Below are positions 24,588 to 51,933 of a stretch of DNA of 64,000 nucleotides, piece after piece. Made by a program: the position numbers and the translations under genes. Positions within the stretch are counted from its first letter, which is position 1. Each line of letters begins with the position of its first letter. The notes below the pieces were generated by a model. That model was not told where the DNA came from, made no database searches, and worked only from the letters and a program-made list of their open reading frames with translations. The stretch comes from Flavobacterium piscis (GTDB lineage: Bacteria; Bacteroidota; Bacteroidia; Flavobacteriales; Flavobacteriaceae), in NCBI RefSeq assembly GCF_001686925.1, contig NZ_LVEN01000042.1, positions 124,001 to 188,000 on the forward strand, written 5' to 3'.

Positions 24588-24636
24588 AATAAGTAAAGAT
24601 GATTTTAAGATGTGATTGCAGCATTTCGGTATTAAG

Positions 24637-24678: not shown

Positions 24679-24683
24679 AATAT

Positions 24684-25568
24684 ATGAAAGGAATTATTTT
24701 AGCGGGAGGTTCTGGCACGCGTTTACATCCATTGACACTTGCTATGAGCAAACAAATGATGCCGGTATATGATAAACCAATGATTTATTATCCGTTGTCT
24801 ACTTTAATGATGTCAGGGATCAGTGAAATATTAATTATTTCTACTCCGCATGACTTACCTAATTTCAAAAAACTGTTAGGGGATGGCTCTAGTTTAGGTT
24901 GTAAATTTAGTTATGCAGAACAGGCAATTCCTAACGGTTTAGCTCAGGCTTTTGTAATTGGAGAAGAATTTATTGGTAATGATGATGTAGCTTTGATATT
25001 GGGAGATAATATCTTTTTTGGATCTAATATGCAGGAACTTTTGAAATCAAATACAAAACCAAAGGGTGGTGTTGTTTTTGCTTATCATGTTTCAGATCCA
25101 GAACGATATGGGGTTGTGGAGTTTGATGAAAATTTTAAAGCGATTTCTATTGAAGAAAAACCTGAAGAACCAAAATCTAACTTTGCGGTTCCTGGATTAT
25201 ATTTTTACGATAACTCTGTTGTGGAGATTGCCAAAAATATTAAGCCAAGCGCTCGCGGGGAATATGAAATTACTGATGTTAACAAAGTGTATTTAGAAAG
25301 AGAAGTTTTGAAAGTAGGTATTTTAAGCAGAGGTACAGCCTGGTTGGATACGGGGACTTTTAATAGTTTAATGCAGGCAGGTCAATTTGTACAGGTTTTG
25401 GAAGAAAGGCAAGGGCTTAAAGTGGGTTGTATTGAAGAAATTGCCTGGAGACAAGGATTTATAAATGATGCTCAACTTGAAGAACTAGCTTTACCTTTAG
25501 TAAAATCCGGATATGGTACTTATTTGATAGAATTTTTAAAACAAAAGAAAAAAGGTGTTAAAATCTAA
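24684..25568 (+). CDS. rmlA: Glucose-1-phosphate thymidylyltransferase
   Basis: RmlA makes dTDP-glucose, the first step to dTDP-L-rhamnose. Over 294 residues it has the nucleotide-binding [11 protein letters not shown] at 8-18, [17 protein letters not shown], the LGDNIFFG segment with the metal-binding aspartate, [19 protein letters not shown] and [10 protein letters not shown]. All are standard for the homotetrameric enzyme. Its translation start is separated from rmlD by the heptamer repeat, unlike the tight rmlC-rmlD junction, so it may be expressed somewhat independently. Confidence 0.97.
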
Positions 25569-25652: not shown

Positions 25653-27620
25653 TTGAATACAGACAAACAAACCAAAATAGCCTCTTTATTGCATAATTTT
25701 CTCTCACCCAGGAATCTAAGAAGTAGCATTAATAATCTTAGCTATTTGCCTAGGTGGATTATCATTGCAATAGACGTAATGGTACTGATTTTTTCGTTTA
25801 CGTTTACTTATATGTTGTTTGAAGGAACGGCATTGGGCTATATTATTACTTCTCATCAGTTTTATTTTGTTACTAGCTTAATTGTTATTAATATATTTTT
25901 CTTTTGGCTATTTAGAACATATTCGGGGATTATAAGACACTCTTCTTACATAGATGCTATTAAACTACTGTTTTCTCAAATGTCGGTTTTAGTGTTTTTT
26001 TTATTTTTCAATTTAGTTTTTGAGTTATATACTGGACACAAGGCATTTTTAAACACAGCACTTTTTATAAATCTGGTTTTATCATTTTGTGGTTTATTTT
26101 TATACCGTGTTGTTGTAAAACAAACTTTTGAATTGTATTTTTCAGAGAAAACCAATTCTAAGTTAATTAGAACGGTAATTTATGGAACTGATGCTAATGC
26201 TATTTCAGTAGCTAATGCATTAAAATTTGAAACACCTTCAAGATTTAAAATTGTGGGTTTTGTTGATAAAAATAATCAGAATGCATCTAAGAGAATGCTG
26301 GATTTGCCAATTCTGATTTTAAGAAAAAAATTACCTGCTTTAATGCGTTCTGTAGCAGCAGAAGGTGTTATTATAGCAGATAAAAGTTTATCAAAAGAAG
26401 AACAATTAATTATAGTAGATCAATGTCTTGAATTCAATTACAGAGTATATACTGTACCATTAATTTCGGATTGGGAAAATCAAAAAGAAATTTCTCAAAA
26501 AGTAAAAAACATTCAGATTGAAGATTTATTAGAAAGAAAACCGATAGTTCTGGATAGTAAATCTATTTCTAAACAATTAAAAGACAAAACGATTCTTATT
26601 ACTGGTGCTGCCGGATCAATAGGGAGCGAGATAGTGAGGCAGGTTTTAGGTTTTAATCCTAAGGTAGTTATTATTTTAGATCATGCTGAAACTCCCCTTC
26701 ACAATTTATGTTTAGAAACCATAGCTTTAGGATCACAGGCAAAAATCGTAACAGTTATTGCAGATGTTAGAAGTAAAAAAGCTTTAGAAAAAGTTTTTAA
26801 AAATTACAATCCTCACGTTGTGTTTCATGCTGCAGCTTATAAACATGTTCCTTTGATGGAGGAAAATCCATCACAAGCCATCCAGACGAATATTAAAGGA
26901 ACTAAAAACCTGGCTGACTTAGCGTGTAAATATCGTGTAAAGAAATTTGTTATGGTATCTACTGATAAGGCAGTGAATCCTAGTAATGTTATGGGGGCCA
27001 GTAAACGAATAGCAGAGAAATATGTTCAATCTTTATTTTTGAAAAATCAAAAAGAAAATATTGATGGGGCAACTAAATTTATTACAACACGTTTTGGAAA
27101 TGTTTTAGGCTCAAACGGATCAGTCGTTCCTTTGTTTACAAAACAAATTGCTGAGGGAGGTCCAGTAACCATTACCCATCAGGATATTATTCGTTATTTT
27201 ATGACCATTCCGGAAGCTTGTCAATTGGTACTGGAAGCCGGTGCAATGGGTAACGGAGGTGAGATTTATATTTTTGATATGGGTAAACCAGTTAAAATTA
27301 TAGATTTGGCAAAAAAAATGATTAAACTGGCAGGATTTATTCCGGACAAGGAAATCAAGATTAAAATCGTAGGTTTAAGACCTGGAGAAAAGTTATATGA
27401 AGAATTATTAAATGATACTTCTAAGACTTTACCAACTTATCATAATAAGATCATGATCGCTCAGGAAATACAAGACGAATATGAGAATTTACATATTGAA
27501 ATCGACGAGCTTATAGGTATTGCTGATTTTTATGATAACGATGACATTGTAACTAAAATGAAGAAAATTGTTCCCGAATTTAAAAGTATGAATTCTGCTT
27601 TTGAAGTTTTAGATAAGTAG
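25653..27620 (+). CDS. WbpM/PglF-like UDP-N-acetylhexosamine 4,6-dehydratase (membrane form)
   Basis: A 655-residue membrane-anchored dehydratase that probably converts UDP-GlcNAc to UDP-4-keto-6-deoxy-GlcNAc, the precursor of QuiNAc, FucNAc and bacillosamine-type sugars. Four membrane helices fill roughly residues 33-150, then a CoA-binding-like Rossmann domain (about 165-290), then the catalytic SDR domain with ITGAAGSIGSEIVRQ near 310. AAAYKHVPLMEENP and STDKAVNPSNVMGASKR show the usual replacement of the YxxxK tyrosine by methionine in this group. The start appears to be TTG at 25653; no in-frame ATG lies before the first helix. A terminator follows at 27657. Confidence 0.92.
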   Translation: MNTDKQTKIASLLHNFLSPRNLRSSINNLSYLPRWIIIAIDVMVLIFSFTFTYMLFEGTALGYIITSHQFYFVTSLIVINIFFFWLFRTYSGIIRHSSYIDAIKLLFSQMSVLVFFLFFNLVFELYTGHKAFLNTALFINLVLSFCGLFLYRVVVKQTFELYFSEKTNSKLIRTVIYGTDANAISVANALKFETPSRFKIVGFVDKNNQNASKRMLDLPILILRKKLPALMRSVAAEGVIIADKSLSKEEQLIIVDQCLEFNYRVYTVPLISDWENQKEISQKVKNIQIEDLLERKPIVLDSKSISKQLKDKTILITGAAGSIGSEIVRQVLGFNPKVVIILDHAETPLHNLCLETIALGSQAKIVTVIADVRSKKALEKVFKNYNPHVVFHAAAYKHVPLMEENPSQAIQTNIKGTKNLADLACKYRVKKFVMVSTDKAVNPSNVMGASKRIAEKYVQSLFLKNQKENIDGATKFITTRFGNVLGSNGSVVPLFTKQIAEGGPVTITHQDIIRYFMTIPEACQLVLEAGAMGNGGEIYIFDMGKPVKIIDLAKKMIKLAGFIPDKEIKIKIVGLRPGEKLYEELLNDTSKTLPTYHNKIMIAQEIQDEYENLHIEIDELIGIADFYDNDDIVTKMKKIVPEFKSMNSAFEVLDK

Positions 27621-37503: not shown

Positions 37504-38205
37504 ATGAGAATAGCAATTACAGGAGAAAAAGGCTTTATAGGAATACATCTAACCCAATATTTTAGAAATATCCTGAAATATGAAGTCGTAGAACTTGGTA
37601 GAGATTATTTAGAACAGCTTTCAAAAATAAAACAATTAGACTGGCTTATTCATGGGGCTTTTATTCAAAGGCATTCTGATGCTGATACTCTAATAGCTTT
37701 AAATAGAAAATTAACCAGCGACACTATAAAATGTTTAGCAGATAATGATCTTAAATGTAACATTGCTTTTTTATCGTCCTTACAGGAAGATTTAGATAAT
37801 GCTTATGGGCAATCTAAAAAAGAGGCAAAAATCGCATTGAGAAAATATTGTTCATCAATCAACAAAGAGTTTGTATCGTATAAACTTCCTAATATTTTTG
37901 GGATTTATGCCGTACCCGATAAAACATCTTTTGTTGCAACATTTTGCTATAATTTGCACAATCAATTGCCTATAAATTTCAATAAAAATAAAATAAAATT
38001 GGTTGGTATAAATGACGTATTGGCAATCGTATCTAATTTTAAAGAAAGTGAAATTTCATATATAGAAACTACAGTTGAAGAAATTTATAAACTATTGAAG
38101 TCTTTTCATGATATTAACGTGAGTCATGAATTTCCTGAATTGAAGAACAAATTTGAGTTAGATTTGTATCAAACCTATTTAAGTTATATTAATTATAAAA
38201 TATGA
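37504..38205 (+). CDS. Short CapF-like NAD(P)-dependent sugar reductase, cupin domain absent
   Basis: A 233-residue SDR protein. GEKGFIG at residues 7-13 binds the dinucleotide, and Tyr101-Lys105 in YGQSK is the catalytic pair. SYKLPNIFG and DKTSFVATFCYNLHNQLPI match the reductase domain of CapF/WbjC, the enzyme that reduces the keto sugar in UDP-L-FucNAc synthesis. CapF normally has about 370 residues with a C-terminal cupin epimerase domain, which is missing here. It overlaps the PseB/CapE-like dehydratase gene by four bases, so the two likely act in sequence. Confidence 0.78.
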   Translation: MRIAITGEKGFIGIHLTQYFRNILKYEVVELGRDYLEQLSKIKQLDWLIHGAFIQRHSDADTLIALNRKLTSDTIKCLADNDLKCNIAFLSSLQEDLDNAYGQSKKEAKIALRKYCSSINKEFVSYKLPNIFGIYAVPDKTSFVATFCYNLHNQLPINFNKNKIKLVGINDVLAIVSNFKESEISYIETTVEEIYKLLKSFHDINVSHEFPELKNKFELDLYQTYLSYINYKI

Positions 38206-39128
38206 GATTATTTATTACAGGCGGAGCAGGTTATCTTGGAAGAGAAATAGTTAAAAGTTTTTATGATAAGGCCGAAATAACGATTTACAGCAGAGATGAG
38301 GCTAAACATTATTATTTAAAAAAGCAATTTCCAAAAATTAACTGTGTAATTGGAGACGTCTCAGATTTTAAGTTAATGAATAAAGCGGCAAAAAATCATG
38401 ATCATGGAATATTTGCGGCATCTTTAAAACAAATTGAAGCAGTCGACCAGAATGTTGAGGTGGCTTTAAGGACTATCGTAAACGGAGCTATTAATTCTAG
38501 AAATGTAGCCGAAGAGAATAATTTTAAAGCAGCATGTTTTATCTCATCAGATAAAAGCAGAGCAGCCACAACATTATATGGAGCAATGAAATTTATTGGC
38601 GGAGAATCTTTTATTGTAGATGCCGAAAAATCGAATGTTAATCTTACTACAGCCATTTATGGGAATGTTCTAAATTCAACCGGAAGTATTATTCCGCTGA
38701 TATTAGATTCAATTAAAAATAAATACGAGCTAAAGTTATACTCGCCTGAAATGACACGTTTTATGATCGATGTAGAAGCAGCAGTTGGACTAATTCACAA
38801 TTCATTTCAATTTACAGGCTTTAATATCATCCCAAACATCCCTAGTTTTAGCGTTTTAGATCTTTTTGAAATTTATCAGGAAGAATTTGGACTGAAATTT
38901 ACATTAGGAGTACCAAGAATTTCAGAAAAAATACATGAAATTATGATCGCTAAAGAAGAAACTCCCAGAACTTATTTGGATAAAAAACTGAATTTGTATA
39001 TGATGCATTATAAAAATATTTATGATAATTCTAATGTTAATTTCGATGAATTTTCCAGTGAAAATGTAGTAGTCTCTAAAGAAGAATTATATAAAAAATT
39101 GAAAGAAAATAATTTCTTTACTCTTTAA
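38202..39128 (+). CDS. PseB/CapE-like UDP-HexNAc 4,6-dehydratase, divergent
   Basis: A 308-residue soluble SDR of the Polysacc_synt_2 type. GGAGYLG lies at 7-13, and YSRDE matches the PseB FSRDE. The catalytic Asp117-Lys118 in SSDKS and Tyr126-Lys130 in LYGAMK match the D-K-Y set of PseB/FlaA1. IYGNVLNSTGSIIP and MTRFMID also match. The usual AALKHVPxxExNP has become ASLKQIEAVDQNV, so it is divergent and may have a changed substrate. PseB-type enzymes act on UDP-GlcNAc, sometimes with C5 epimerisation. With the coupled CapF-like reductase it may yield a 6-deoxy-HexNAc; no matching 2-epimerase of the CapG type is present. Confidence 0.8.
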   Translation: MRLFITGGAGYLGREIVKSFYDKAEITIYSRDEAKHYYLKKQFPKINCVIGDVSDFKLMNKAAKNHDHGIFAASLKQIEAVDQNVEVALRTIVNGAINSRNVAEENNFKAACFISSDKSRAATTLYGAMKFIGGESFIVDAEKSNVNLTTAIYGNVLNSTGSIIPLILDSIKNKYELKLYSPEMTRFMIDVEAAVGLIHNSFQFTGFNIIPNIPSFSVLDLFEIYQEEFGLKFTLGVPRISEKIHEIMIAKEETPRTYLDKKLNLYMMHYKNIYDNSNVNFDEFSSENVVVSKEELYKKLKENNFFTL

Positions 39129-39160: not shown

Positions 39161-40171
39161 ATGAGAATAGGCAGTAATCCTAATAAAGAGATTAATCAAG
39201 AACAATCTTTTTATATACACCAGATAATAGTTCCGGTTTACATTCCTAATGAAGAAGGATATTTTTTAGATGCACTCAAAATATTAAAAATTTGTCTGAA
39301 TTCTTTATTCAATACCATTCACGAAAGAACTTTTGTTACCATTGTAAATAACGGAAGTTGTGCTAATGTTGTCGAATATCTCAATCAGCTTTTTGAAGAA
39401 AATAAAATAAAAGAGTTAATACATACTGATAATATTGGTAAAATAAATGCTGTTTTTAAGGGATTGTCAGGAAATAATATAGAACTGGTAACCATAACAG
39501 ATGCAGATGTTATGTTTTTTGCTGACTGGCAATCACAGACCGTAAATGTTTTTTCTAAAATACCAAAAGCGGGTGTCGTAGGTATTGTTCCGCAATTTAA
39601 AATGTATACAAGTCACTGTGGGAATGTTATTTTTGATAATTTATTTAATAAAAATCTGAAATTTCTTCCTGTAAAGAACCAAGAAGCCTTAATACATTTT
39701 TATGACAGCATTGGTTGGGATAGAAATTATAATCAGGATTACTTAAAATACGCATTAGGTTTAATTTATGACGATGTGCAGTGTTTTGTGGGTTCGGGTC
39801 ATTTTGTAGCAACATATAAAAAAGATGCTTTTGAAGAATTATTTTCCTTTATTGGAGGCAGAAAGGCAGCAGGCATCGGCGAAACCTATATTGATAATAA
39901 ACCTTTAGAAAAAGGGTATTGGAGGCTTACAACTTATGATAATTATGCCTGTCATATGGGTAATGTTTATGAGGATTGGATGAAAAATATAGCAACCAAT
40001 ACAACGACAGTAAATTTTTCGAATTTAAATTTTATAAAATGTAAAAAAATTAGTGCTGCAAGTTATTATCTGAAAAATAAGGTTTTTGTAAAAATACTTG
40101 CGGCAAAAGAAATTTCGAGGTTATTTATAAAATGGAAAAAATTGCCAAAAGAAATGGTGAAAAAGTATTAA
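39161..40171 (+). CDS. GT2-like glycosyltransferase
   Basis: A 336-residue protein with a GT-A-type fold inferred from IIVPVYIPNEEGYF, VNNGSC, the acceptor-side TDNIGKINAVFKGL and the metal site ITDADVMF near residue 115. Its middle part, including HFYDSIGWDRNYNQDYLKYALG and GSGHFVATYKKDAF, is unlike the standard GT2 enzymes of this locus, so it may form its own subgroup. The next GT2 gene starts on the base after its stop codon, so the pair is probably coupled. Confidence 0.76.
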   Translation: MRIGSNPNKEINQEQSFYIHQIIVPVYIPNEEGYFLDALKILKICLNSLFNTIHERTFVTIVNNGSCANVVEYLNQLFEENKIKELIHTDNIGKINAVFKGLSGNNIELVTITDADVMFFADWQSQTVNVFSKIPKAGVVGIVPQFKMYTSHCGNVIFDNLFNKNLKFLPVKNQEALIHFYDSIGWDRNYNQDYLKYALGLIYDDVQCFVGSGHFVATYKKDAFEELFSFIGGRKAAGIGETYIDNKPLEKGYWRLTTYDNYACHMGNVYEDWMKNIATNTTTVNFSNLNFIKCKKISAASYYLKNKVFVKILAAKEISRLFIKWKKLPKEMVKKY

Positions 40172-41107: not shown

Positions 41108-41773
41108 ATGAAAAACATCGCTATAATTCCAGCCCGGGGCGGATCTAAAAGATTGCCGGAAAAAAATATAAAATTATTAAACGGGTTGCCATTACTTTCA
41201 TTTAGTATATTATATGCACAGGCAAATAGTGATATTATTGATGAAGTATATGTTTCTACAGACGATGATAATATAAAAAAAATCGCCTTGCAATACGGTG
41301 CAAAAGTTATCGATAGGCCCAAGGAAATTTCAGGTGATTTTGAGCCAACAGTTTCAGCATTAAAGCATGTATTGCAAAATATAGATTATGCAGTAGATAA
41401 TGTTTTTTTGTTGCAGGCGACAAACCCCATTCGTCCCGAAGATTTATTAAAAAAGACCTTTCAAATATATCAGGAAGAAAACTGCAGCAGTTTATTTACC
41501 GTTTCCAGAAATCACCAAAAATTAGGAAAAATAGCAGATAAAAAGTTTATTCCATACAATTACAAAATAGGACAAAGAAGTCAGGACCTTGAGCCTCTTT
41601 ATTTTGAGAATGGATTACTTTATATCACAAAAGCAGCATTGATTATGCAGAACATAATTATTTCTGAAGATGCTTTTCCTTTCAAAATAGAGCATATTTT
41701 TGCCAACATTGATATTGACACGCAGGAAGACTTTGATTACGCCCAATATTTATACAAAAAACATATAAAATAA
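41108..41773 (+). CDS. neuA: CMP-N-acetylneuraminate (nonulosonate) cytidylyltransferase
   Basis: NeuA activates sialic acid with CTP to give CMP-sialic acid. The 221-residue length is typical of the single-domain enzyme. The CTP-binding IPARGGSKRLPEKNI at residues 6-20 is diagnostic, with VYVSTDDDNIKKIA, LLQATNPIRPEDL and the late HIFANIDIDTQEDFDYA with the conserved aspartates. neuB follows after 18 bases. CMP-legionaminate or CMP-pseudaminate synthetases are related, so the exact acid depends on NeuB and NeuC, which here favour Neu5Ac. Confidence 0.93.
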   Translation: MKNIAIIPARGGSKRLPEKNIKLLNGLPLLSFSILYAQANSDIIDEVYVSTDDDNIKKIALQYGAKVIDRPKEISGDFEPTVSALKHVLQNIDYAVDNVFLLQATNPIRPEDLLKKTFQIYQEENCSSLFTVSRNHQKLGKIADKKFIPYNYKIGQRSQDLEPLYFENGLLYITKAALIMQNIIISEDAFPFKIEHIFANIDIDTQEDFDYAQYLYKKHIK

Positions 41774-41791
41774 TAATTCAGAACCTACTTT

Positions 41792-42832
41792 ATGAATCCG
41801 TATATAGAAATAGCAGCAAGAAAAATTGGACAAGATTTTCCACCTTTAGTAATTGCCGAGATCGGAATTAATCATGAAGGCTCTCTGCAAGTCGCCAAAG
41901 AAATGGTAGATGCTGCAGAAAGAGCAGGAGTTGAAGTCGTAAAACATCAGACTCACATTGTAGAAGATGAAATGAGTGGTGCGGCTAAAAAAGTAATTCC
42001 AGGTAATTCTGATGTTTCTATTTACGAAATCATGGAGCGCTGTTCTTTAAATGAAGCCGATGAATTGGAGCTTAAAAGTTATGTCGAAAGCAAAGGAATG
42101 ATTTTTATATCAACTCCATTTTCTCGTGCCGCTGCAGAACGTTTAGAAAAGTTTGATATTCCGGCTTATAAGATTGGTTCTGGCGAGTGCAATAATTATC
42201 CATTATTAGAGCATATTGCTTCGTTTGGAAAACCGGTCATTTTAAGCACAGGTATGAATACTATCGAAAGTGTTCAAAAAGCAGTATCTATTTTTGACAA
42301 GCATAATATTCCGGTGGCACTTTTACATACCACAAATTTATATCCTACACCAATTCACCTAGTACGTTTTGGTGCAATGGCCGAACTTCATGAAGCATTC
42401 CCGGATAAAGTTTTTGGTTTAAGCGATCATACTTTAAACAATAATGCCTGTTTAGGAGCAGTAGCTTTAGGAGCAAGTATTTTAGAACGACATTTTACAG
42501 ATCATATGCAGCGCACAGGACCGGACATTGTTTGCAGTATGGATGAAAAAGCTTGTCAGGAATTAATAGTTTCATCTGCAGAGATCGCTTTAATGCGAGG
42601 AGGAACTAAAAAGCCGGCACCTGAAGAACGGGTAACAATTGATTTTGCATTTGCTACAGTTTGTGCCATCGCTCCAATTAAAAAAGGGGAAGTTTTTTCT
42701 AAAGAAAATATCTGGGTTAAACGCCCAGGAACAGGAAAAATATTGGCAGAACATTTTAATGAGTTAATTGGTAAAACCGCAACTAGAGATATTCAAAATG
42801 ATGAACAACTAGATTGGGATGATATAAAATAA
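41792..42832 (+). CDS. neuB: N-acetylneuraminate synthase
   Basis: NeuB condenses N-acetylmannosamine with phosphoenolpyruvate to make Neu5Ac. The 346-residue protein has the TIM-barrel domain with [11 protein letters not shown] near 20-30, [33 protein letters not shown] and [12 protein letters not shown], and a C-terminal SAF (antifreeze-like) domain from about residue 285 ([15 protein letters not shown]). The segments are remarkably like the Neu5Ac synthases of C. jejuni (NeuB1) and N. meningitidis (SiaC), as I remember them, rather than the pseudaminate type. This supports Neu5Ac or a close relative. Confidence 0.94.
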
Positions 42833-42866
42833 ATTTCATACTCCCGAATTTAACCTACGGATCATT

Positions 42867-43976
42867 TTGAAACAAAATTACAGACTAAGAGAACTTGATT
42901 TTTTAAGAGGAATTGCAATTGTTCTCGTACTAATGCGTCATCAGCAATTATACGATTTTACAACAAAAATGGGATGGATTGGTGTTGATCTCTTTTTTGT
43001 ACTTAGTGGCTTTCTTGTATCCGGCTTATTATTTAGAGAATACTTAAAGTTTGGCAACATACAACCGGGTTTGTTTCTAATAAGACGGGGATTTAAAATC
43101 TATCCGATTTATTATCTAACCTATTTTTTATATTTAGTTTCAAAAATAATAAAACATCAATTTGAATTGAAAGGACTTTTATCAGACCTGTTTTTTGTTC
43201 AAAATTATGTTTATGGCTGGGGTTACGCCTATATCCCGAGTTGGTCATTAGCTGTAGAAGAACATTTCTATTTTAGTTTTGCACTATTATTATGGTTGGG
43301 AATTAAATACTCATGGATTGACTTAAAATCAGGTGTAGAAAGAAAAATAAGTAAGTTCGAAATTGGGATATTTCTAATTATGATCTCTTGTTTAATTGGT
43401 AGAACCATTAGCAATATTTACTTTCAGGGAAATGGCGATAAAAATTTTACGATGTCTCATCTACGAGTAGATTCACTTTTGTCAGGTACTTTAGTTTCCT
43501 ATCTCTACTATTTTAAAAAAGAAAAATTAGTATTGTTTTTTCAATCAAACAAAGTAGTTCTAATGATTCTCTCGTTTGTCTTGCTTTTTTTTACGCCATT
43601 CGTAGATTTTGAAGATTCATTTTTTGTGAGAACATTTGGCTTTACATTTCTCTATATATCATTTGCAATTCTGCTTATTTATTTTTTAATAAATGATAAC
43701 ATAAATAAGCAACTTGATACCCTTTTTTCAAAAACAGGAGTTGATATTATAAGTAAAATAGGATTTTCATCTTATAGTATATATATCATACACGGTTTTG
43801 TGAATTTTATATTTGCTTTATTAAACAACTTCTTTTTGAATAATGTATTACATCAAACAGTGTTCTTTTTTATTACATCTGTTACAAGTGTTGTATCAGG
43901 AATATTGATGACGTGGTATGTAGAAAAATATTTTTTAAATACTAGAGAGAAATACTTTCCTAATAGAATAAATTAA
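42867..43976 (+). CDS. Acyltransferase-3 family membrane O-acyltransferase
   Basis: A 369-residue membrane protein of the OafA/YrhL type. The start is TTG at 42867, because the family N terminus YRLRELDFLRGIAIVLVLMRH, with the conserved arginine and histidine, follows at once. GVDLFFVLSGFLVSGLL, RRGFKIYPIYY, SWSLAVEEHFYF and about ten helices complete the pattern. It sits inside the sialic-acid set, between neuB and neuC, so it could O-acetylate the sialic acid or the sialylated glycan. The position is suggestive only; other sugars are equally possible acceptors. Confidence 0.9.
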   Translation: MKQNYRLRELDFLRGIAIVLVLMRHQQLYDFTTKMGWIGVDLFFVLSGFLVSGLLFREYLKFGNIQPGLFLIRRGFKIYPIYYLTYFLYLVSKIIKHQFELKGLLSDLFFVQNYVYGWGYAYIPSWSLAVEEHFYFSFALLLWLGIKYSWIDLKSGVERKISKFEIGIFLIMISCLIGRTISNIYFQGNGDKNFTMSHLRVDSLLSGTLVSYLYYFKKEKLVLFFQSNKVVLMILSFVLLFFTPFVDFEDSFFVRTFGFTFLYISFAILLIYFLINDNINKQLDTLFSKTGVDIISKIGFSSYSIYIIHGFVNFIFALLNNFFLNNVLHQTVFFFITSVTSVVSGILMTWYVEKYFLNTREKYFPNRIN

Positions 43977-43990
43977 CTTTGCAAAATAAT

Positions 43991-44024
43991 ATATTTCTAA
44001 ACAGTTGTTAGCTGTAAGAAATAT
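43991..44024 (+). other. Stem-loop upstream of neuC
   Basis: ATATTTCT at 43991-43998 pairs with AGAAATAT at 44017-44024, and ACAG at 44001-44004 with CTGT at 44012-44015, enclosing a seven-base loop. A small internal mismatch separates the two helices. It lies between the acyltransferase stop and the neuC ATG. No T-run follows, so it is probably an RNA processing or pausing element rather than a full terminator. Confidence 0.45.
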
Positions 44025-44042
44025 AAGATTTTAAATAATTAA

Positions 44043-45164
44043 ATGAAAAAAATCCTTTTTCTTACTGGTACGCGCGCTGATTTTGGTAAAATAAAATCAT
44101 TGATTCAAATTCTTGAAAAACATCAGGATTTTGAAATTCATGTTTTTGTTACCGGTATGCATCTTCAGGAAGTTTACGGTTATACCCTGATAGAAATAGA
44201 GCGTTGTAATTTTAAAAATGTTTTCACATTCGAAAACCATACACATGAAACTACAATGGATTTAACATTGGCAAAAACTATCGAAGGGTTATCAGGTTAT
44301 TGTAAAACCATTAATCCAGATATGATTGTTGTACATGGTGATCGTGTAGAAACACTGGCAGGAGCAATTGTAGGTTCGCTCAATAATATTTTGGTAGCAC
44401 ATATAGAAGGAGGAGAGATTTCAGGAACAGTCGATGAATTAATCCGACACAGTGTAAGTAAATTGAGTCATATTCATTTTGTATCAAACAAACAAGCTGC
44501 AAAAAGGCTGATGCAGATGGGAGAAATCAAAGACTCTGTATTTACAATTGGTTCTCCGGATATCGACATTATGTTTTCTAATCAATTGCCAGATTTAAAT
44601 ACAGCAAAAGAATACTATAAAATTAATTTTGAACACTATGCTATAGTTATGTTTCATCCCGTAACAACTGAAGTTAAAGAGATGAAAAAATATGCAGAAA
44701 CCTTTGTAAAATCTCTTTTAGAAGACACCCATAATTATGTGGTTATTTTTCCTAATAATGATTTAGGAACCCAGTTTATTCTTGAAGCATATCACAAATT
44801 AAAAGACGATTCAAGATTCCGGGTTTTTCCATCCCTTCGATTCGAATATTTTCTGACATTATTAAAAAATAGTCAATTTATAATTGGAAATAGCAGTGCC
44901 GGAATCCGTGAAGCACCCTATTACGGAATTCCAATTATTAATATAGGCACAAGACAACAAAACAGATCAATTCATGCAGATATAATTAATACAGATTATA
45001 CCGAAGATGGTATTAAAGCCGCATTGGCAATAATAGATTCCCATAAAATTCGAAGTATAGAAGATGATTTTGGGCAAGGAAATAGTAATCAGTTATTTTT
45101 AGAATGTTTGCAAAAAACAAATATTTGGCAACTCAACCATCAAAAACAATTTAGGGATTTCTAA
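44043..45164 (+). CDS. neuC: UDP-N-acetylglucosamine 2-epimerase, hydrolysing
   Basis: NeuC converts UDP-GlcNAc to free ManNAc and UDP, the first committed step to Neu5Ac. The 373-residue protein starts KKILFLTGTRADFGKIKSL, then MIVVHGDRVETLAGAIVGSLN, VAHIEGGEISGTVDELIRHSVSKL and FIIGNSSAGIREAPYYG, the signature of the hydrolysing (NeuC/LegG) subgroup rather than WecB. It resembles C. jejuni NeuC1 closely along its length. The related LegG acts on UDP-diacetamido sugars and is the alternative. With neuA and neuB the window holds a full route to CMP-sialic acid. Confidence 0.93.
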   Translation: MKKILFLTGTRADFGKIKSLIQILEKHQDFEIHVFVTGMHLQEVYGYTLIEIERCNFKNVFTFENHTHETTMDLTLAKTIEGLSGYCKTINPDMIVVHGDRVETLAGAIVGSLNNILVAHIEGGEISGTVDELIRHSVSKLSHIHFVSNKQAAKRLMQMGEIKDSVFTIGSPDIDIMFSNQLPDLNTAKEYYKINFEHYAIVMFHPVTTEVKEMKKYAETFVKSLLEDTHNYVVIFPNNDLGTQFILEAYHKLKDDSRFRVFPSLRFEYFLTLLKNSQFIIGNSSAGIREAPYYGIPIINIGTRQQNRSIHADIINTDYTEDGIKAALAIIDSHKIRSIEDDFGQGNSNQLFLECLQKTNIWQLNHQKQFRDF

Positions 45165-45170
45165 GCAATT

Positions 45171-46070
45171 ATGATTACATTTTCTAAACTTGGGAATAAA
45201 GGAAATTTGGGGAATCATCTTTTTCAGATCGCATCGACTGTAGGGCTTGCTCAAAAATACGGACATACTTATAGTTTTCCGGAGTGGAGCTATTCCAGCT
45301 ATTTTAAAAATCAGATTCCTGTTTTACAAAAAGAAAATAGTTTTAAAAAAGTTAAAGAAGAAAAATACAATTATTACGACTGGAAATTAGGAAATGATAA
45401 TTATGATCTTGATGGATGGCTACAATCGGAAAAATATTTTGATGTAGAAAAAACAAAAGAAATTTTTCAGTTTAAAGAATTTGCGAATGATTTGTATCTA
45501 AAGCATGATTTTCTTTTTGCTAAAAAAACACTTTTAATATCTGTAAGAAGAGGCGATTTTGTACAACATCCCTATTATTATCAAATATCGCATTTATTTT
45601 ATTTAAAAGGCATAATTAAAAATTTTCCGGATTGGAAAGATCGAAATATAATTTTTGCAAGTGATGATATAGCGTATTGCAAATACCATTTTTCATTTTT
45701 AGAAAACGGCTTTTTCTTAGACGATTTATCAGCAATCGAACAATTAGCTTTAGCAACAAAATTTGATGATTTTGTAATAAGTAATTCCACTTTTTCGTGG
45801 TGGATTGCATGGTTGGGAGAAAAAGAAAATTCGAAAATTGTAAGACCTTTAAAGAATTTTAGAGACAAATTTGCAAAAATGAATAACGATCAGGATTATT
45901 TTCCCGAAAGATGGATTAGTTTTGATGACAAAAAGCAGAATATTGGAAACCAATATTGGCTTTTTTATCTAAAAGGCTTTCTTTATGACTTTTTAGTTGG
46001 AACTAAAATTTCAGTAAAGAAAAATAAAAACAATTTCAAAAAAAGAATAAAGCAATACATTCGCCAGTAA
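45171..46070 (+). CDS. GT11-family fucosyltransferase (alpha-1,2-type)
   Basis: A 299-residue GT11 enzyme that should add fucose from GDP-L-fucose, usually in alpha-1,2 linkage. Landmarks are LGNHLFQIA near residue 13, GWLQSEKYF at 82-90, the nucleotide-binding VRRGDF at 125-130 (the HxRRxDF motif with Val for His) and the late ISNSTFSWWIAWLGE. The donor can be made by Gmd and Fcl at 18554-20648. It is six bases after neuC, so the glycan may carry both fucose and sialic acid. Confidence 0.9.
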   Translation: MITFSKLGNKGNLGNHLFQIASTVGLAQKYGHTYSFPEWSYSSYFKNQIPVLQKENSFKKVKEEKYNYYDWKLGNDNYDLDGWLQSEKYFDVEKTKEIFQFKEFANDLYLKHDFLFAKKTLLISVRRGDFVQHPYYYQISHLFYLKGIIKNFPDWKDRNIIFASDDIAYCKYHFSFLENGFFLDDLSAIEQLALATKFDDFVISNSTFSWWIAWLGEKENSKIVRPLKNFRDKFAKMNNDQDYFPERWISFDDKKQNIGNQYWLFYLKGFLYDFLVGTKISVKKNKNNFKKRIKQYIRQ

Positions 46071-46083
46071 AGATTATAAGAAA

Positions 46084-47478
46084 ATGCAAAACAATAAAGT
46101 ATTCATTTTATTGCCGGACGGAATTGGAATTAGAAACTTTGCTTTTTCTAATTTTTATCAGCTAGGCATTGATCTCGGTTTTCAAATAAAATATTGGAAT
46201 AATACACCGTTTGATTTAACGACATTAGGTTTTGAGGCAATTAAAATTAAAAATGCCAGATCAAATCCTTTTACAGATAGTTATAAAAATGCCCGTAAAC
46301 ACATAGAACTCAATTTAAGTATTAAAAGCGAAAATGATCAGGTTTATGATACCTATCGTTTTCCTTTTTCATACCATAAAATAAAGCCTGCCTTAAAAAA
46401 TCTTGCAACACGGTTTTTAATTGCAACACATTCCTCGACTAAAGGATTAAGTACAATTCGAAAAAAAATTAAAAATTTAGAGCGAAATACAAGCTACTAT
46501 CAACATTGTCTGGAAACTTTAAAAATAGAAAAACCCGCTTTGGTTTTCTGTACCAATCAACGGCCGGTTTTGGCAATTGCACCATTATTAGCGGCGCAAG
46601 AATTAGGGATTCCAACAGCAACATTTATTTTTTCGTGGGATAATTTACCAAAAGCAACCATGGTTGTCGAGACTGATTTTTATTTTGTCTGGAGCGAACA
46701 CATGAAAAAAGAGCTTTTGCATTATTATCCGGATGTAAAAGAAAATCAGATTTTTGTAACAGGAACACCACAATTCGAAAGTCATTTTGATAGCGATAAA
46801 TTAATATCAAGAAATGAGTTTTTTGCAAAACAGCAACTTGATACAGATAAAAAATATATATGTTACTCAGGAGATGATATAACGACTTGTCCTGATGACG
46901 CCCAATACTTATCCGATGTTGCCGATGCTGTTAGAGAATTAAATGATGAGGGAAATTCACTTGGCATTATTTTCAGACGCTGTCCTGTAGACTTCTCTAA
47001 TAGGTATAATGCAGTTCTGGAAAAAAATAAAGATTTAGTTGTTCCAATTGCACCCTTATGGGGAAAAGTTGGAGAAGATTGGGATACTATTTTACCCACT
47101 AAACAAGATGTAGATTTGCAAATGAACACTATTAAATATACAGAAATGGTGCTGAATCTTGGTTCATCAATGGTATTTGATTATGTGGCGCATCAAAAGC
47201 CTTGTGCTTTTATAAATTATAATGTACCCAATAAATTAAATCAGGATTGGTCAGTTTCAAAAATCTATAATTATGTTCATTTCCGTTCCATGCCCAATAA
47301 AAATGCAGTTTTATGGCTAAACTCAGCTAAAGACATAAAACAAAAAATAAAACTTGGTTTAGAGCAGCCAACACAAACAATAACAAATGCTCAAAAATGG
47401 TTTGAAATAATCAACCAGCATCCTCCTAAAAATACATCGGCCAGAATTTGGAAAGCTATTGAAACAATAGTTAGCTAA
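46084..47478 (+). CDS. GT-B-fold glycosyltransferase-like protein of unassigned family
   Basis: A 464-residue protein I cannot place in a named family. It appears to have two Rossmann-like halves. The first ends with LVFCTNQRPVLAIAP and FIFSWDNLPKATMVV, and the second has FVTGTPQFES, YICYSGDD, GIIFRRCPVDF and a late NLGSSMVFDYVAHQKPCAFINY. The last resembles the donor-site glycine-serine and aspartate arrangement of GT-B enzymes such as CDP-glycerol or KDO-type transferases. There is no membrane helix or signal peptide. It lies directly after neuC and the GT11 gene, and no known sialyltransferase family is visible in the window, so it is a candidate for that role. This is inference. Confidence 0.6.
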   Translation: MQNNKVFILLPDGIGIRNFAFSNFYQLGIDLGFQIKYWNNTPFDLTTLGFEAIKIKNARSNPFTDSYKNARKHIELNLSIKSENDQVYDTYRFPFSYHKIKPALKNLATRFLIATHSSTKGLSTIRKKIKNLERNTSYYQHCLETLKIEKPALVFCTNQRPVLAIAPLLAAQELGIPTATFIFSWDNLPKATMVVETDFYFVWSEHMKKELLHYYPDVKENQIFVTGTPQFESHFDSDKLISRNEFFAKQQLDTDKKYICYSGDDITTCPDDAQYLSDVADAVRELNDEGNSLGIIFRRCPVDFSNRYNAVLEKNKDLVVPIAPLWGKVGEDWDTILPTKQDVDLQMNTIKYTEMVLNLGSSMVFDYVAHQKPCAFINYNVPNKLNQDWSVSKIYNYVHFRSMPNKNAVLWLNSAKDIKQKIKLGLEQPTQTITNAQKWFEIINQHPPKNTSARIWKAIETIVS

Positions 47479-47526: not shown

Positions 47527-48960
47527 ATGTTTTTTAATTCCTTAGCATTTGCTGTTTTTTTACCAATAGTTTTCATACTGTATTGGTTTGTTTTCAATAA
47601 AACAAAAAGCACGCAAAATGCATTATTAATTGTCGCCAGTTACTATTTTTATTCTTGTTGGGATTGGAGATTTCTATTTTTATTAGTGTTCTCAACCTTT
47701 CTTGATTATTATACAGGAATTCAAATCGAAAAAGGAAAATCAGAACGAAGCCGCAAATTTTGGTTTTGGCTCAGCATAATAGTTAATTTAGGATTTTTAG
47801 GGATTTTTAAATATTATAATTTTTTCGCTTCTTCATTCTCAGATTTGTTAAATTCAGCAGGAATAGAAGCAAGTCCAATTTTATTGAATGTAATTCTTCC
47901 GGTAGGAATTTCATTTTATACTTTTCACGGATTATCATACGTAATAGATATTTACTACAAACGAATAAAAGCCGAATACAACTTTATAGATTATTCCTTA
48001 TTTGTAAGTTACTTTCCACTTTTAGTAGCAGGACCAATAGAAAGAGCTACGCATTTATTACCTCAGGTAAAAGTAAAGCGTGAGTTTGATTTTGAAAAAG
48101 CCAAAGAAGGAATTTGCCAGATTATTTGGGGATTGGTAAAAAAAGTAGTGATAGCTGATACTTGTGCAACATACGCAAATGCTATTTTTGACAATTATAC
48201 TGCAATGAATTCATTTTCATTAATTCTGGGAGCAATATATTTTGCATTTCAAATTTATGGAGATTTTTCAGGATATTCAGATATCGCGTTAGGAGTTTCA
48301 AAACTGTTTGGTTTAGATTTATTACGAAACTTTAATTACCCCTATTTTTCAAGAGATATAGCCGAGTTTTGGCGTCGTTGGCACATCTCACTTTCATCAT
48401 GGTTTAGAGATTATTTGTATATTCCGTTAGGCGGAAGCAAAGGCGGAATCTGGATAAAAATTAGAAATACCTTTATCATTTTCGTAGTGAGCGGATTTTG
48501 GCATGGTGCCAATTGGACTTATATTGCCTGGGGATTTATAAATGCGCTATACTTTTTGCCCTTACTTTTGTCAAACAGTAACCGTAATAATATAGACGAG
48601 ATCCATCTCAAAGTTAATTTTGATTCCGTGAAAGTCATAATAAGCATACTTTCAACGTTTTTAATTACTTGTGTCGCGTGGGTATTCTTTAGGGCAAAAA
48701 CCATATCAGATGCTATTTTATATTTAAAAAGAATTGTGACAGATCGAAATTTTGGTTTTCAATATTTAGAAAACGAACGTTACAATTATGAATTACTGCT
48801 TATGATTGGAGTATTTGTTTTAGTAGAGTGGAATAACAGAACTAAAGTTGAACCACTTTCCGGGAAAAGAAATCTACTTAAAATAGCTTTGGCAATACTT
48901 GCGATAATAGCATTTGGTACATTTTCAGATTATAAAGAATTTATATATTTTCAGTTTTAA
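47527..48960 (+). CDS. MBOAT-family O-acyltransferase (AlgI-like), module 2
   Basis: The second MBOAT of the locus, also 477 residues. MFFNSLAFAVFLPIVF and SYYFYSCWDWRFL open it; YGDFSGYSDIALGVSKLFG, FWRRWHISLSSWFRDYLYIPLGG and the catalytic SGFWHGANW match module 1 closely. Like the first, it ends with a one-base overlap (TAATG) with an SGNH-like gene, here followed by a second one. It probably moves acetyl groups across the inner membrane for a different glycan or position than module 1. Confidence 0.92.
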   Translation: MFFNSLAFAVFLPIVFILYWFVFNKTKSTQNALLIVASYYFYSCWDWRFLFLLVFSTFLDYYTGIQIEKGKSERSRKFWFWLSIIVNLGFLGIFKYYNFFASSFSDLLNSAGIEASPILLNVILPVGISFYTFHGLSYVIDIYYKRIKAEYNFIDYSLFVSYFPLLVAGPIERATHLLPQVKVKREFDFEKAKEGICQIIWGLVKKVVIADTCATYANAIFDNYTAMNSFSLILGAIYFAFQIYGDFSGYSDIALGVSKLFGLDLLRNFNYPYFSRDIAEFWRRWHISLSSWFRDYLYIPLGGSKGGIWIKIRNTFIIFVVSGFWHGANWTYIAWGFINALYFLPLLLSNSNRNNIDEIHLKVNFDSVKVIISILSTFLITCVAWVFFRAKTISDAILYLKRIVTDRNFGFQYLENERYNYELLLMIGVFVLVEWNNRTKVEPLSGKRNLLKIALAILAIIAFGTFSDYKEFIYFQF

Positions 48961-49844
48961 TGAAGCATTTTTTAATTTATACAGTCAAAATTATTGTTGT
49001 AACCCTTTTAATAGCCGTTGCGCTTGATGGTTTATACACAGTTATTTTTATGCAGTCTGAAAATAGAGGAAAAGTAGAAACGGTTTTTAATTCTAAAGCT
49101 CAAAAATACGATGTTGTCATTTTGGGTTCCTCGCGGGCAAACAATCATTTTGTGTCACAAATGTTCGAAGATAAAGGACTAAAAACTTTTAATTACGGTA
49201 TAAGTGGCGGTCATTTGTTCGAAGCTTCACTTGTGCTAAAATTAATGATAGAAAGAAAATATGAGATCAAAAATGTAATTCTTGAAGCAGATCTGAATCT
49301 TTCTAATCATCAGGAATCAGATGGCTTTTCTGCAAAGTTCCTACCTTATATTCATAATTCGGAAATTATAAAAGAGCATTTTTCTAACCAAAAAAACTTC
49401 AATGAACTATATTATATTCCGTTTTACAGATATATAAAATACGATTCTAAAATTGGACTTAGAGAAGTCGTAAAAATTGAATCTAAAGAAAAAACCAATG
49501 CTTTAGATAATTTAGGGTTTTATCCGTTAGAGAAACACAAAAATGGCAATATGAAAAATAATATTGTTAATTTAAATCCTTTGCCGCACAATAAATATTA
49601 CGAGGAGATTAAAAATATTTGCAAAGCTAACAATATTAATTTTATTGCTGTTATGACGCCAATGTGCGAAAATGTTGTTGGAATGAATTATTTTGATAAA
49701 GTAAAAAAAGCGTATCCGGAGATTTACAATTACGAAAATGTAGTAATCGAAAACAAATACTTTTCATCTTGCGGACATATGACAAATGAAGGAGCCAGGA
49801 TATTTACAACCAGAATAATTAAAGATTTTTTTAAAAGTAGATGA
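48960..49844 (+). CDS. SGNH-like periplasmic protein of MBOAT module 2, copy 1
   Basis: A 294-residue protein with an N-terminal membrane helix (about residues 7-24) and a periplasmic domain. VVILGSSRANNHFV near residue 52 is a typical nucleophile block with Ser. The expected C-terminal DxxH block reads SSCGHMTNEGA, so the aspartate three residues before His is replaced by serine. It is coupled to the MBOAT by a one-base overlap. The next gene is a close paralogue. It may place acyl groups on the glycan, perhaps with an altered charge-relay residue. Confidence 0.72.
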   Translation: MKHFLIYTVKIIVVTLLIAVALDGLYTVIFMQSENRGKVETVFNSKAQKYDVVILGSSRANNHFVSQMFEDKGLKTFNYGISGGHLFEASLVLKLMIERKYEIKNVILEADLNLSNHQESDGFSAKFLPYIHNSEIIKEHFSNQKNFNELYYIPFYRYIKYDSKIGLREVVKIESKEKTNALDNLGFYPLEKHKNGNMKNNIVNLNPLPHNKYYEEIKNICKANNINFIAVMTPMCENVVGMNYFDKVKKAYPEIYNYENVVIENKYFSSCGHMTNEGARIFTTRIIKDFFKSR

Positions 49845-49896: not shown

Positions 49897-50772
49897 ATGA
49901 GAAATTTTTTGCTTTATGTATTAAAAATCCTTTTTCTGATTCTTGCTCTGGCAATTATAATCGACAAGGCTTATTCATGTATTTTTCTTCAATCCAATCA
50001 AAGAGATAAAATAGGATATATTTACAACTCAGAACCCAAACAATATGATGTTGTTATATTAGGATCTTCGCGAGCGAACAATCATTTTGTAACACAAATG
50101 TTTACTGATAAAGGTTTAAAAACTTTTAATTTTGGAATGCAGGGTTCTAAATTGTTTGAATCGGATCTGGTTTTAAAGTTATTGCTTGAAAAAAAAAACA
50201 AAATCAAAAATGTAATAATTGATGTTGATGTAACATTAAAATCGGAAACAAGATCAGAAGGCACTTTTGTTCATTTTTTACCCTATTTGCATTCTTCAGA
50301 TGTTGTAAAAAAGCAATTTGAAGATTTAGACGATTTTAAAAGTCTTTATTATATCCCGTTTTACAGATATCTAAAATATGATACAAAAATTGGTTTCAGG
50401 GAAATGTTTTTTTACGGATTAAATAAAAGAAGCCAGGAACTCAATAATGGAGGCTATGATCCTTTAACATCTAACGGAACAAAGTTAAACGAAGAAAGTT
50501 TAAATTTTCAGCCCAAAAGAAATAGATACTATGAAGAAATTAAAAGAATTTGCAAATTAAACCATATTAACCTTATTGCGGTAATGACACCAATGTGCGA
50601 AAATGTTATCGGAATAGATTATTTTCAAAAAGCGAATCAATTATATCCGGAAATTCATAACTACGAAAATGTAGTGGTAGAAGATCAGTATTTTTCATCA
50701 TGCGGACATATGAATGATAACGGATCCAAAATTTTCACAGCCAGAATTTTAAAAGATTTTTTTAATAAATAA
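49897..50772 (+). CDS. SGNH-like periplasmic protein of MBOAT module 2, copy 2
   Basis: A 291-residue tandem paralogue of the preceding gene, with near-identical blocks at matching positions: YDVVILGSSRANNHFV, DKGLKTFN, YYIPFYRY, NLIAVMTPMCENVIG, HNYENVVVEDQYFSSCGHM. The same DxxH-to-SxxH change is present, so it predates the duplication or is a feature of the subgroup. The copies differ most in about residues 105-130 and 175-205, a possible specificity region. The glycosyltransferase that follows starts on the base after its stop codon. Confidence 0.72.
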   Translation: MRNFLLYVLKILFLILALAIIIDKAYSCIFLQSNQRDKIGYIYNSEPKQYDVVILGSSRANNHFVTQMFTDKGLKTFNFGMQGSKLFESDLVLKLLLEKKNKIKNVIIDVDVTLKSETRSEGTFVHFLPYLHSSDVVKKQFEDLDDFKSLYYIPFYRYLKYDTKIGFREMFFYGLNKRSQELNNGGYDPLTSNGTKLNEESLNFQPKRNRYYEEIKRICKLNHINLIAVMTPMCENVIGIDYFQKANQLYPEIHNYENVVVEDQYFSSCGHMNDNGSKIFTARILKDFFNK

Positions 50773-51933
50773 ATGCATATAGCTTTTTTAACATCAGAAT
50801 ATCCACATGATAAAGTTGCGCAGGCAGCCGGAATTGGCACGAGTATAAAAAACCTGGCTAACGCATTAACGAAAAATGGAGAAGAAGTTACTGTTTTTGT
50901 GTATGGACAAAAAGAGCAGGAAATTATTGTTGAAAATGGTATTAGAATTCATCTTCTTAAAAATAAAAAGTACAAGTTCTTTAGATGGTTTTTTCATCGA
51001 AAATATATTGAGAGCTATTGTAATACAGTAATAAAAAAAGAAAATATCCTTATTTTAGAAGCGCCTGATTGGACGGGAATTACAGCTTTCATGAAGTTTA
51101 GAATTCCGTTAGTGATACGTTTTCATGGCAGTGATACCTATTTTTGTCATATAGAAAATAGAAAACAAAAAAAGAAAAATTTCTGGTTCGAAAAATTAGC
51201 TTTGCAAAAGGCGGAAGCTTTTATAGCCCCAACTGATTTCGCGGGTAAATTATCAAATTCACTCTTTAAAATCCAAGATAAAGAAACCAGAGTAATTCCA
51301 AATGGTTTAAATCCTGAAGCATTTCAAAATTTATTTGCCGGCGAATATGATAAAGAATTAATACTGTACATAGGAACCTTAATTAGAAAAAAAGGAGTTT
51401 TAGAGTTACCAGAAATTTTTAATAAAGTTAGAAAAGATAATCCCAATGCAAAATTGGTTTTAATAGGCAGTGATTCGTTTGATATGCAAACCAATTCAGC
51501 TTCGACGTGGGAATTGATGAAAAAACAATTCAAACTAGATGATTTAAAAAATGTTACCTATTTAGGAAAAATACCTTACAGCGAAATACAAGCCTATATT
51601 AAAAAGGCAAATGTTTGTGTGTTTCCTACTTTTGCCGAAACACAGGGAATGGTAACAATTGAGTCTATGGCATTGCAAAAAGCAGTAGTAAACAGTAATT
51701 TTGGCTGGGCACAAGAACTTATAATCGATCGGGAAAGCGGTTTTTTAGTAGATCCGGAAAATCATGAATTATTCGCTCAGAGAATTACCGAAATAATAAA
51801 TAATGAATTACTTAGTCTAAAAATAGGTAAACAAGCAAGAGATAGAGTAGAAGAGAAATTTGATATTAAGAAATTAGCAAAAGCCAATATTAAGTTTTAC
51901 CAGGAAATAATCAGACAATACAAAACGAAGTAA
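50773..51933 (+). CDS. GT4-family glycosyltransferase
   Basis: A 386-residue GT-B enzyme. IAFLTSEYPHDKVAQAAGIGTSIKNLANAL is the family-type N terminus with a long glycine loop, followed by VIRFHGSDTYF, IAPTDFAGKLS and VIPNGLN. The donor half has LYIGTLIRKKGVLELPEIF, VTYLGKIPYSEI and FPTFAETQGMVTIESMALQKAVVNS with the E-x7-E glutamates. The next gene starts on the last base of its stop codon. Substrate unknown. Confidence 0.9.
   Translation: MHIAFLTSEYPHDKVAQAAGIGTSIKNLANALTKNGEEVTVFVYGQKEQEIIVENGIRIHLLKNKKYKFFRWFFHRKYIESYCNTVIKKENILILEAPDWTGITAFMKFRIPLVIRFHGSDTYFCHIENRKQKKKNFWFEKLALQKAEAFIAPTDFAGKLSNSLFKIQDKETRVIPNGLNPEAFQNLFAGEYDKELILYIGTLIRKKGVLELPEIFNKVRKDNPNAKLVLIGSDSFDMQTNSASTWELMKKQFKLDDLKNVTYLGKIPYSEIQAYIKKANVCVFPTFAETQGMVTIESMALQKAVVNSNFGWAQELIIDRESGFLVDPENHELFAQRITEIINNELLSLKIGKQARDRVEEKFDIKKLAKANIKFYQEIIRQYKTK

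Follow-up and report, generated by a model that had tools for sequence, protein, structure and literature searches.

We propose that an operon within a long Flavobacterium polysaccharide locus probably makes cytidine-monophosphate-activated N-acetylneuraminic acid (CMP-Neu5Ac) and places this sugar on a surface polysaccharide, with a protein that we call NGT (a name coined here) as the candidate transferase. Neu5Ac is a sialic acid, the sugar capping many animal cell surfaces. The window, by which we mean the whole stretch of DNA analysed (64,000 nucleotides; label G000:C42:124001-188000), comes from a host genome of 5.9 Mb (G000), the closest named NeuB relatives of which are from Flavobacterium, and spans the polysaccharide locus, in which positions 41108-47478 hold neuA, neuB, an Acyl_transf_3 gene, neuC, a GT11 gene and an open reading frame (ORF) of 464 amino acids (aa) that encodes NGT. 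The six ORFs all lie on the + strand with intergenic gaps of less than 70 bases, and all are open and intact in the window translations. A first-pass annotation of this DNA had described neuA, neuB and neuC as present and intact, quoted motifs from NeuB and NeuC, and noted that an acyltransferase splits the set and a fucosyltransferase comes next. This description is borne out: the three genes are open at the positions it gave, the motifs are found in the translations, the Acyl_transf_3 gene stands between neuB and neuC, and the GT11 gene follows neuC.

The three enzyme families of NeuA, NeuB and NeuC are supported by profile comparisons. NeuB (41792..42832, + strand, 346 aa) scores just above the curated NCBIfam threshold for N-acetylneuraminate synthase (TIGR03569; 406.4 vs 399.65 bits), and NeuC (44043..45164, + strand, 373 aa), a predicted hydrolysing uridine-diphosphate N-acetylglucosamine (UDP-GlcNAc) 2-epimerase, clears its own widely (TIGR03568; 414.1 vs 235.9). 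The latter model is not specific to kind, two Flavobacterium epimerases of a second class (discussed below) passing it as well with 382 and 386 bits, and so the Neu kind of NeuC is argued from its position in the tree and from its NeuB partner. NeuA (41108..41773, + strand, 221 aa), a putative CMP-nonulosonate cytidylyltransferase, matches PF02348 with 94.2 bits and passes the Pfam CTP_transf_3 cut-off; its best curated NCBIfam model is PseF, at 152.8 below the cut-off of 205.7, a model that likewise fails to tell the nonulosonate kinds apart, and among solved proteins its best relative is one named NeuA (93.8 bits).

Reference loci for the phylogenies were defined by their neighbour genes and comprised E. 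coli K1 (UTI89), Sinorhizobium meliloti, Alistipes indistinctus, four plasmid loci with LegB- and/or LegC-type neighbours (the Leg-context references), and Pse loci, which were entered in the NeuB and NeuA trees and left out of the NeuC tree. The comparison of NeuB and NeuC with legionaminate enzymes that the first-pass annotation had suggested as a check was run, and both proteins stand apart from the four Leg-context references. Window NeuB forms one starred clade (100/99) with the N. meningitidis, Alistipes and Sinorhizobium proteins, from which the Pse rows are also separate, and window NeuC forms one starred clade (100/99) with those of Alistipes and Sinorhizobium. The closest solved protein to window NeuB is N. 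meningitidis SiaC/NeuB (PDB 1xuu), with 63% identity over 342 residues, and both of the quoted NeuB motifs are identical in the alignment of the two. At fourteen residues that we take to be active-site positions, the window protein equals that of N. meningitidis at 14/14; three of them are changed in one Leg reference and four in one second-class protein. The original idea of a sialic-acid set is thereby supported, NeuB sharing its clade with a solved Neu5Ac synthase. The sequence evidence supports a Neu class assignment for NeuB and, less firmly, for NeuC, which is the weaker half of the assignment because, as far as this analysis shows, none of its clade references (Alistipes, Sinorhizobium) is biochemically proven. 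Neu5Ac is favoured over legionaminate as the product of the gene set.

We regard it as most improbable that the product is legionaminic acid or a different 7-amino nonulosonate, made with the help of dehydratase and aminotransferase genes from other parts of the window. Such genes exist, namely a FlaA1-like dehydratase (25653-27620) and two LegC-like aminotransferases (7644 and 21986), both of which score under the LegC cut-off. Against their use here, NeuB and NeuC do not group with the Leg-context references; in both Leg-type loci read in the genus (L153 and L208), LegC, LegH and a PtmE-like gene accompany the synthase and NGT is absent from the stretch; and the aminotransferase at 21986 lies in a group at 21622-25568, consisting of a weak FdtA-like match, the aminotransferase, rmlC and rmlA, that resembles a deoxythymidine-diphosphate (dTDP)-amino sugar route more than LegC. 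No LegB over the curated cut-off was found in genome G000 (best 139.5 vs 475), an absence that is weak on its own as a locus with LegC and LegH in G493 likewise has no LegB over the cut-off. Genome G000 also gave no PseB match at E<=1e-60 and a single match to PF03102 (the NeuB family) at E<=0.001, and the window synthase scores 213.6 against the PseI model, under its cut-off of 340.25. Neither the legionaminate nor the pseudaminate reading is supported by tree, neighbours or genome searches.

In the pathway that we favour, NeuC would convert UDP-GlcNAc to N-acetylmannosamine (ManNAc), NeuB would combine ManNAc with phosphoenolpyruvate to give Neu5Ac, NeuA would turn Neu5Ac into CMP-Neu5Ac, and NGT would move Neu5Ac onto a growing glycan. 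A glycosyltransferase encoded downstream (50773..51933, + strand, 386 aa), of GT4 type by appearance, a label read off the sequence, would attach a neighbouring sugar before or after the nonulosonate. The glycan would be O-acetylated by the Acyl_transf_3 membrane acyltransferase (42867..43976, + strand, 369 aa, TTG start as listed; PF01757, 67.5 bits), a possible O-acetyltransferase, and by an MBOAT O-acyltransferase (47527..48960, + strand, 477 aa; PF03062, 103.5 bits) with a likely role in polysaccharide O-acetylation, and fucose would be attached by the GT11 family fucosyltransferase (45171..46070, + strand, 299 aa; PF01531, 63.8 bits against a cut-off of 23.9). Judged from these genes, O-acetylation and fucosylation of the glycan are plausible. 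We infer the role of NGT as the transferase, its acceptor, the order of the sugars and the targets of the acylating enzymes.

The first-pass annotation had found no sialyltransferase of a known family apparent. At the sequence level this is correct, yet the range does contain a candidate whose family is unclassified, namely NGT (46084..47478, + strand, 464 aa). Linkage, a predicted GT-B fold and a profile match to the BFO_1060 family make it the best candidate sialyltransferase, or more broadly CMP-nonulosonate transferase, of the operon. Linkage was studied in 150 Flavobacterium genomes drawn evenly from the genus, complemented by a family sample of 397 genomes and by a set of named loci from a public genome scan (the best 80 of 320 NeuB relatives, 70 of these 80 with full flanks). 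Among the 150 genomes, NGT occurs in 108 and PF03102 in 109, with both present in 105, NGT only in 3, PF03102 only in 4 and neither in 38 (Fisher p 1.9e-27, kinship ignored). The two genes share a contig in 98 of the 105 genomes, within 5 kb of each other in 68 and within 10 kb in 95; the distance is larger in G440 (10.7 kb), G461 (13.9 kb) and G422. They are on separate contigs in the other seven, one of which (G421) has both genes at contig ends. With the exception of G519, where the contig ends less than 1.5 kb from neuB, all 57 Neu-type genomes carry NGT (56/57). Named loci agree, 74 of all 80 having NGT; five of the six without it have short flanks, and the remaining locus (L124) is one of two neuABC copies in Flavobacterium sasangense (DSM 21067), where the other copy (L119) does have NGT.

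The synthase nearest to NGT is not always of the Neu type. In the 98 genomes with both genes on one contig, it is found in 51 Neu-type genomes, is another full-length synthase in 30, is a protein of about 290 aa in 16, and is a cut gene in one. Eight of the 30 were tree-typed as second class (L149-L152, L155, L158, L160, L161) and three were typed by BLAST (G456, G502, G526), the synthase in G456 being Pse-type, while the remainder are typed solely by not matching window NeuB at E<=1e-90. Pseudaminate and legionaminate sets of the genus are mostly located away from NGT. Eleven of the 27 highest PF03102 scores were checked and proved to be Pse-type or Pse-like (7), Leg-type (2) or unclear (2); of the full 27, a single one (G456) has an NGT at a distance of 10 kb or less; another 15 share a contig with NGT but are separated from it by at least 29 kb, and for the last 11 NGT is on a different contig or absent from the genome. 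The four genomes with PF03102 and no NGT have a Pse locus (G418), a Leg locus (G451), a weak match (G420) and the Neu locus of G519. Conversely, of the three NGT genomes without PF03102, G543 has NGT at a contig edge, and G441 and G413 have genes 67-69% identical to window neuA adjoining NGT, with no neuC in the 18 kb read; these two may use imported sialic acid. Between neuA and NGT of G413 sits an ORF (L143, 7349-7981) that looks by eye like a transposase of the REP type.

NGT matched no Pfam family at E<=0.001, and a single-sequence search of the PDB gave no match up to E 10. An AlphaFold2 model built from a 38-sequence alignment (mean predicted local distance difference test, pLDDT, 93.1; predicted template modelling score, pTM, 0.90) has a predicted GT-B fold. 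TarL, solved with cytidine-diphosphate (CDP)-ribitol, matches the model at Z 20.7 and was found by a profile search of the PDB with E 0.0049, followed by two mutases at E 1.3. The second half of NGT taken alone (pLDDT 90.7) matches epimerases, TarL (Z 15.4), TagF (Z 14) and trehalose synthases alike, at Z of about 14 to 16, so that TarL and TagF, both CDP-donor enzymes, are two among many others matched. On the predicted structure, the TarL/TagF resemblance is compatible with a cytidine-nucleotide donor for NGT but is no proof of one.

Sequence profiles link NGT to a second group of proteins. Against the BFO_1060 family model (NF046086) it scores 40.9 bits, under the curated cut-off of 200, and falls outside the family by that measure; a profile comparison with eight proteins over that cut-off gives a probability of 98 and E 2.1e-13 over 277 columns, and NGT appears to be a remote relative of the family. 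A NeuB homologue was present in seven of the eight BFO_1060 loci read and a PseB homologue within the stretch in six; one locus (L183) has a PseG-like neighbour just below the cut-off, and its synthase falls with PseI in the tree. According to PMC6120980 and PMC6388019, T. forsythia GtfS is a pseudaminate transferase by knock-out, pseI being the preceding gene. GtfS may belong to the BFO_1060 family, with BFO_1060 as its orthologue; no paper naming BFO_1060 was among the literature matches listed. Two Pse-type operons (L206 in G456 and L189 in G623) have a 450-aa protein beside the synthase and a distant NGT-like protein adjoining it, that is, two transferase-like genes; the G623 450-aa protein scores over the BFO_1060 cut-off. 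Within NGT, D12-G13 is invariant near the N-terminus with P or T before it, and may or may not correspond to the D/E-D/E-G motif of GT38, GT52 and GT80 sialyltransferases. The NGT profile did not match the Sinorhizobium polysialyltransferase, and BLAST with that protein and a partial E. coli one found none in the loci searched. No paper on a Flavobacterium sialyltransferase was among the matches listed in literature searches whose coverage excluded most subscription journals.

Several observations weigh against the operon and transferase as proposed. NeuA is 45% identical to Alistipes NeuA and 25-37% identical to references of the Neu, Leg and second-class kinds without distinction, and thus says nothing on the donor; nor does its tree, in which it pairs with the Alistipes protein (unstarred, 92/86). 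E. coli K1 NeuB and NeuC fall outside the window clades on long branches, and since E. coli K1 NeuB belongs to the well-known polysialic-acid capsule genes, Neu5Ac synthases exist outside the window clade as well. The tree program also warned of joined long branches, the Sinorhizobium NeuC row included, and of the letter composition of Leg rows. As regards NGT, the top structural matches to its model are UDP-GlcNAc 2-epimerases (Z 21 to 25), not sialyltransferases, and no solved sialyltransferase was among the matches listed, an absence that does not count against the assignment. NGT also does not have the histidine of the HP motif of GT38, GT52 and GT80 sialyltransferases (as defined in PMC2169525): where the BFO_1060 alignment retains H231-P232, the profile alignment places R298-x-x-P301 of NGT, the residue preceding the proline being Cys, Ser or Asn. 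In G422, NGT lies 121 kb from neuB. Finally, the control gene 50773-51933 occurs in 105 of the 150 genomes and accompanies PF03102 in 99 of these, a linkage nearly as tight as that of NGT, and co-occurrence alone consequently cannot single out the user of the CMP-nonulosonate. The linkage of MBOAT tells little, given its presence in 133 of the 150 genomes.

The linkage of the 50773 gene bears on the view that Neu5Ac is made as proposed and transferred by another enzyme of the operon, for example the 50773 glycosyltransferase or one of the GT2 enzymes upstream of neuA, with NGT adding a different sugar of the glycan. Besides the co-occurrence of the former, this view can draw on homologues of the GT2 gene at 39161-40171 in 56 of the 70 full-flank loci; we nevertheless consider it unlikely. 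GT4 enzymes are retaining and use nucleoside-diphosphate (NDP)-sugars, GT2 enzymes likewise use NDP-sugars, and to our knowledge CMP-nonulosonate transferases belong to families other than these two. For NGT, the kinship is with BFO_1060 proteins, the majority of which are encoded near nonulosonate synthases. It is this knowledge of donors, together with the kinship and fold of NGT, that led us to choose NGT as the transferase.

The Neu5Ac-type cassette is common in Flavobacterium, window-type NeuB being found at E<=1e-90 in 57 of the 150 genomes. In the family sample some NeuB relative occurs at E<=1e-40 in 140 of 397 genomes, 43 of them (the window's own genome included) at 59-100% identity. 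Homologues were counted over the 70 full-flank named loci as follows: neuB and neuC 70, NGT 69, neuA 68, MBOAT 63, the 50773 enzyme 60, GT11 27, and the acyltransferase 8, three of these eight at 59% identity or more. By these counts the conserved core consists of neuABC and NGT, and the genes for acylation and fucosylation are variable additions. The order neuA-neuB-neuC on one strand is kept in 68/68 of the full-flank loci in which all three genes were found, which excludes a chance arrangement. This conservation, and the intactness of all genes here, also make it very unlikely that the locus is silent or that its product does not reach the surface, in which case the genes would represent genomic potential only. 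What can be said for that view is that G413 and G441, carrying neuA and NGT without neuB, illustrate that parts of the set can go missing.

The diversity of synthases beside NGT raises the matter of exchange of donor sets. The second class joins the Neu clade in the NeuB tree (94/90, unstarred, with the long-branch warning applying there) and in the NeuC tree (99/96). Two further rows that carry a second-class label in the synthase trees, L153 and L154, are Leg-type and Pse-type, respectively. LegB or PseB over the cut-off was found in none of the 18 genomes taken as second class, 7 of them tree-typed, and BLAST of ten second-class loci with LegB, LegC, LegH, PtmE, PseG, PseH and the window aminotransferases gave no match in seven and only 22-34% identity in three. 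The second class is possibly a second route to a sialic acid. Several second-class loci have an ORF of 316-322 aa after or near neuA (L149 12055-13020; L150 8197, L151 8048, L152 10637, L160 10298), that of L149 being a D-2-hydroxyacid dehydrogenase by NCBIfam, below cut-offs; such an ORF might provide the nonulosonate with a hydroxy-acyl group. An amidotransferase that is AsnB-like by eye lies near NGT in L158 (10689-12395), and ORFs of 565-576 aa are similarly placed in other second-class loci (L155 8413, L159 10917, L160 11248, L194 10602).

The synthase of about 290 aa, nearest to NGT in 16 of the 150 genomes, represents a further set. Two that were read score 193 and 207 against the NeuB cut-off of 399.65, and in all five genus loci read (L145-L148, L157) this synthase stands with a protein of 385-389 aa that is similar to 2-keto-3-deoxynonulosonic acid (KDN)-9-phosphatase. 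The one such protein scanned consists of fused cytidylyltransferase and phosphatase parts; its phosphatase part is under the KDN-9-phosphatase cut-off of 180 (134.5; a partial relative 140.9) and over the KdsC subfamily cut-off. By analogy, we infer that this set would make KDN. In a tree of 65 hand-picked NGTs, for which the bootstrap did not converge, the eight rows with KDN-like sets form one clade. The Neu-type label requires 19 changes on this tree, compared to a shuffled mean of 20.8, and the second-class label 15, compared to 14.4, the latter label resting in six family rows on identity and distance or on neighbouring low-identity neuC/neuA; starred branches alone force 12 changes for each of the two. 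As the change counts are near the shuffled ones, NGT lineages do not track whether the adjoining set is Neu-type or second class. A broader view, in which NGT founds a new Bacteroidota sialyltransferase family, the donor pathway is a swappable module, and the second class evolved separately as a route to sialic acid that takes the place of neuABC and may carry a different N-acyl group, is put forward tentatively, and we lean slightly against it as a whole.

Elsewhere in the window, gmd (18554-19672, + strand; TIGR01472, 562 against a cut-off of 415) and the epimerase/reductase gene beside it (19716-20648, + strand; PF01370, 221.2 bits), a putative fucose synthase gene, probably supply guanosine-diphosphate (GDP)-fucose to the GT11 enzyme. 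Downstream of the MBOAT gene, two similar ORFs (48960-49844 and 49897-50772, + strand) with zero Pfam or NCBIfam matches are, from their position, possible MBOAT partners. The locus holds two MBOAT paralogues of equal length (477 aa; 13245-14678 and 47527-48960), and the genome has three in total at E<=1e-60. At 37504-39128, a short WbjC/FnlB-like reductase (model positions 1-243 of 372) precedes a PseB/FnlA-like protein that is under both cut-offs, perhaps an N-acetyl-L-pneumosamine (L-PneNAc) or N-acetyl-L-fucosamine (L-FucNAc) branch.

Most discussion of sialic acid concerns animals and the microbes that mimic them. A study of wastewater granules (PMC12016536) regards the role of Flavobacterium in sialic acid production as unclear, and the Flavobacterium neu locus makes this role testable. 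If NGT is the transferase, the missing last step is filled and a new family of enzymes for attaching Neu5Ac or KDN is at hand, and the swapping of synthesis sets next to a conserved transferase would offer a clear example of modular evolution in a surface sugar.

Compared with known systems, the cassette is closest in its synthase to N. meningitidis, whose NeuB shares the clade and identity described above, but it differs from the neuABC-type pathway of that species in sitting within a long polysaccharide locus. Sinorhizobium meliloti pSymB (CP130053, L199) likewise has NeuA, NeuB and NeuC in one row, with 51% identity for NeuB and 44% for NeuC; its neuABC adjoins a gene annotated as belonging to the alpha-2,8-polysialyltransferase family, which, unlike BFO_1060 proteins, shows no profile match to NGT. 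The BFO_1060 family resembles NGT in profile and in standing mostly beside NeuB homologues, whereas the sets beside NGT are of the Neu, second-class and KDN-like kinds instead of Pse, and NGT has no HP histidine. Flavobacterium loci with the synthase of about 290 aa and a KDN-9-phosphatase-like protein recall the KDN pathway of Bacteroides thetaiotaomicron (synthase BT1714, PMC6200933), but have the cytidylyltransferase and phosphatase fused in one protein of 385-389 aa, the phosphatase part under the KDN cut-off. Set beside these systems, the neuABC set is a fresh example of a familiar kind, and the interesting part is NGT, a candidate new sialyltransferase family whose linkage is strong, though shared with one neighbour.

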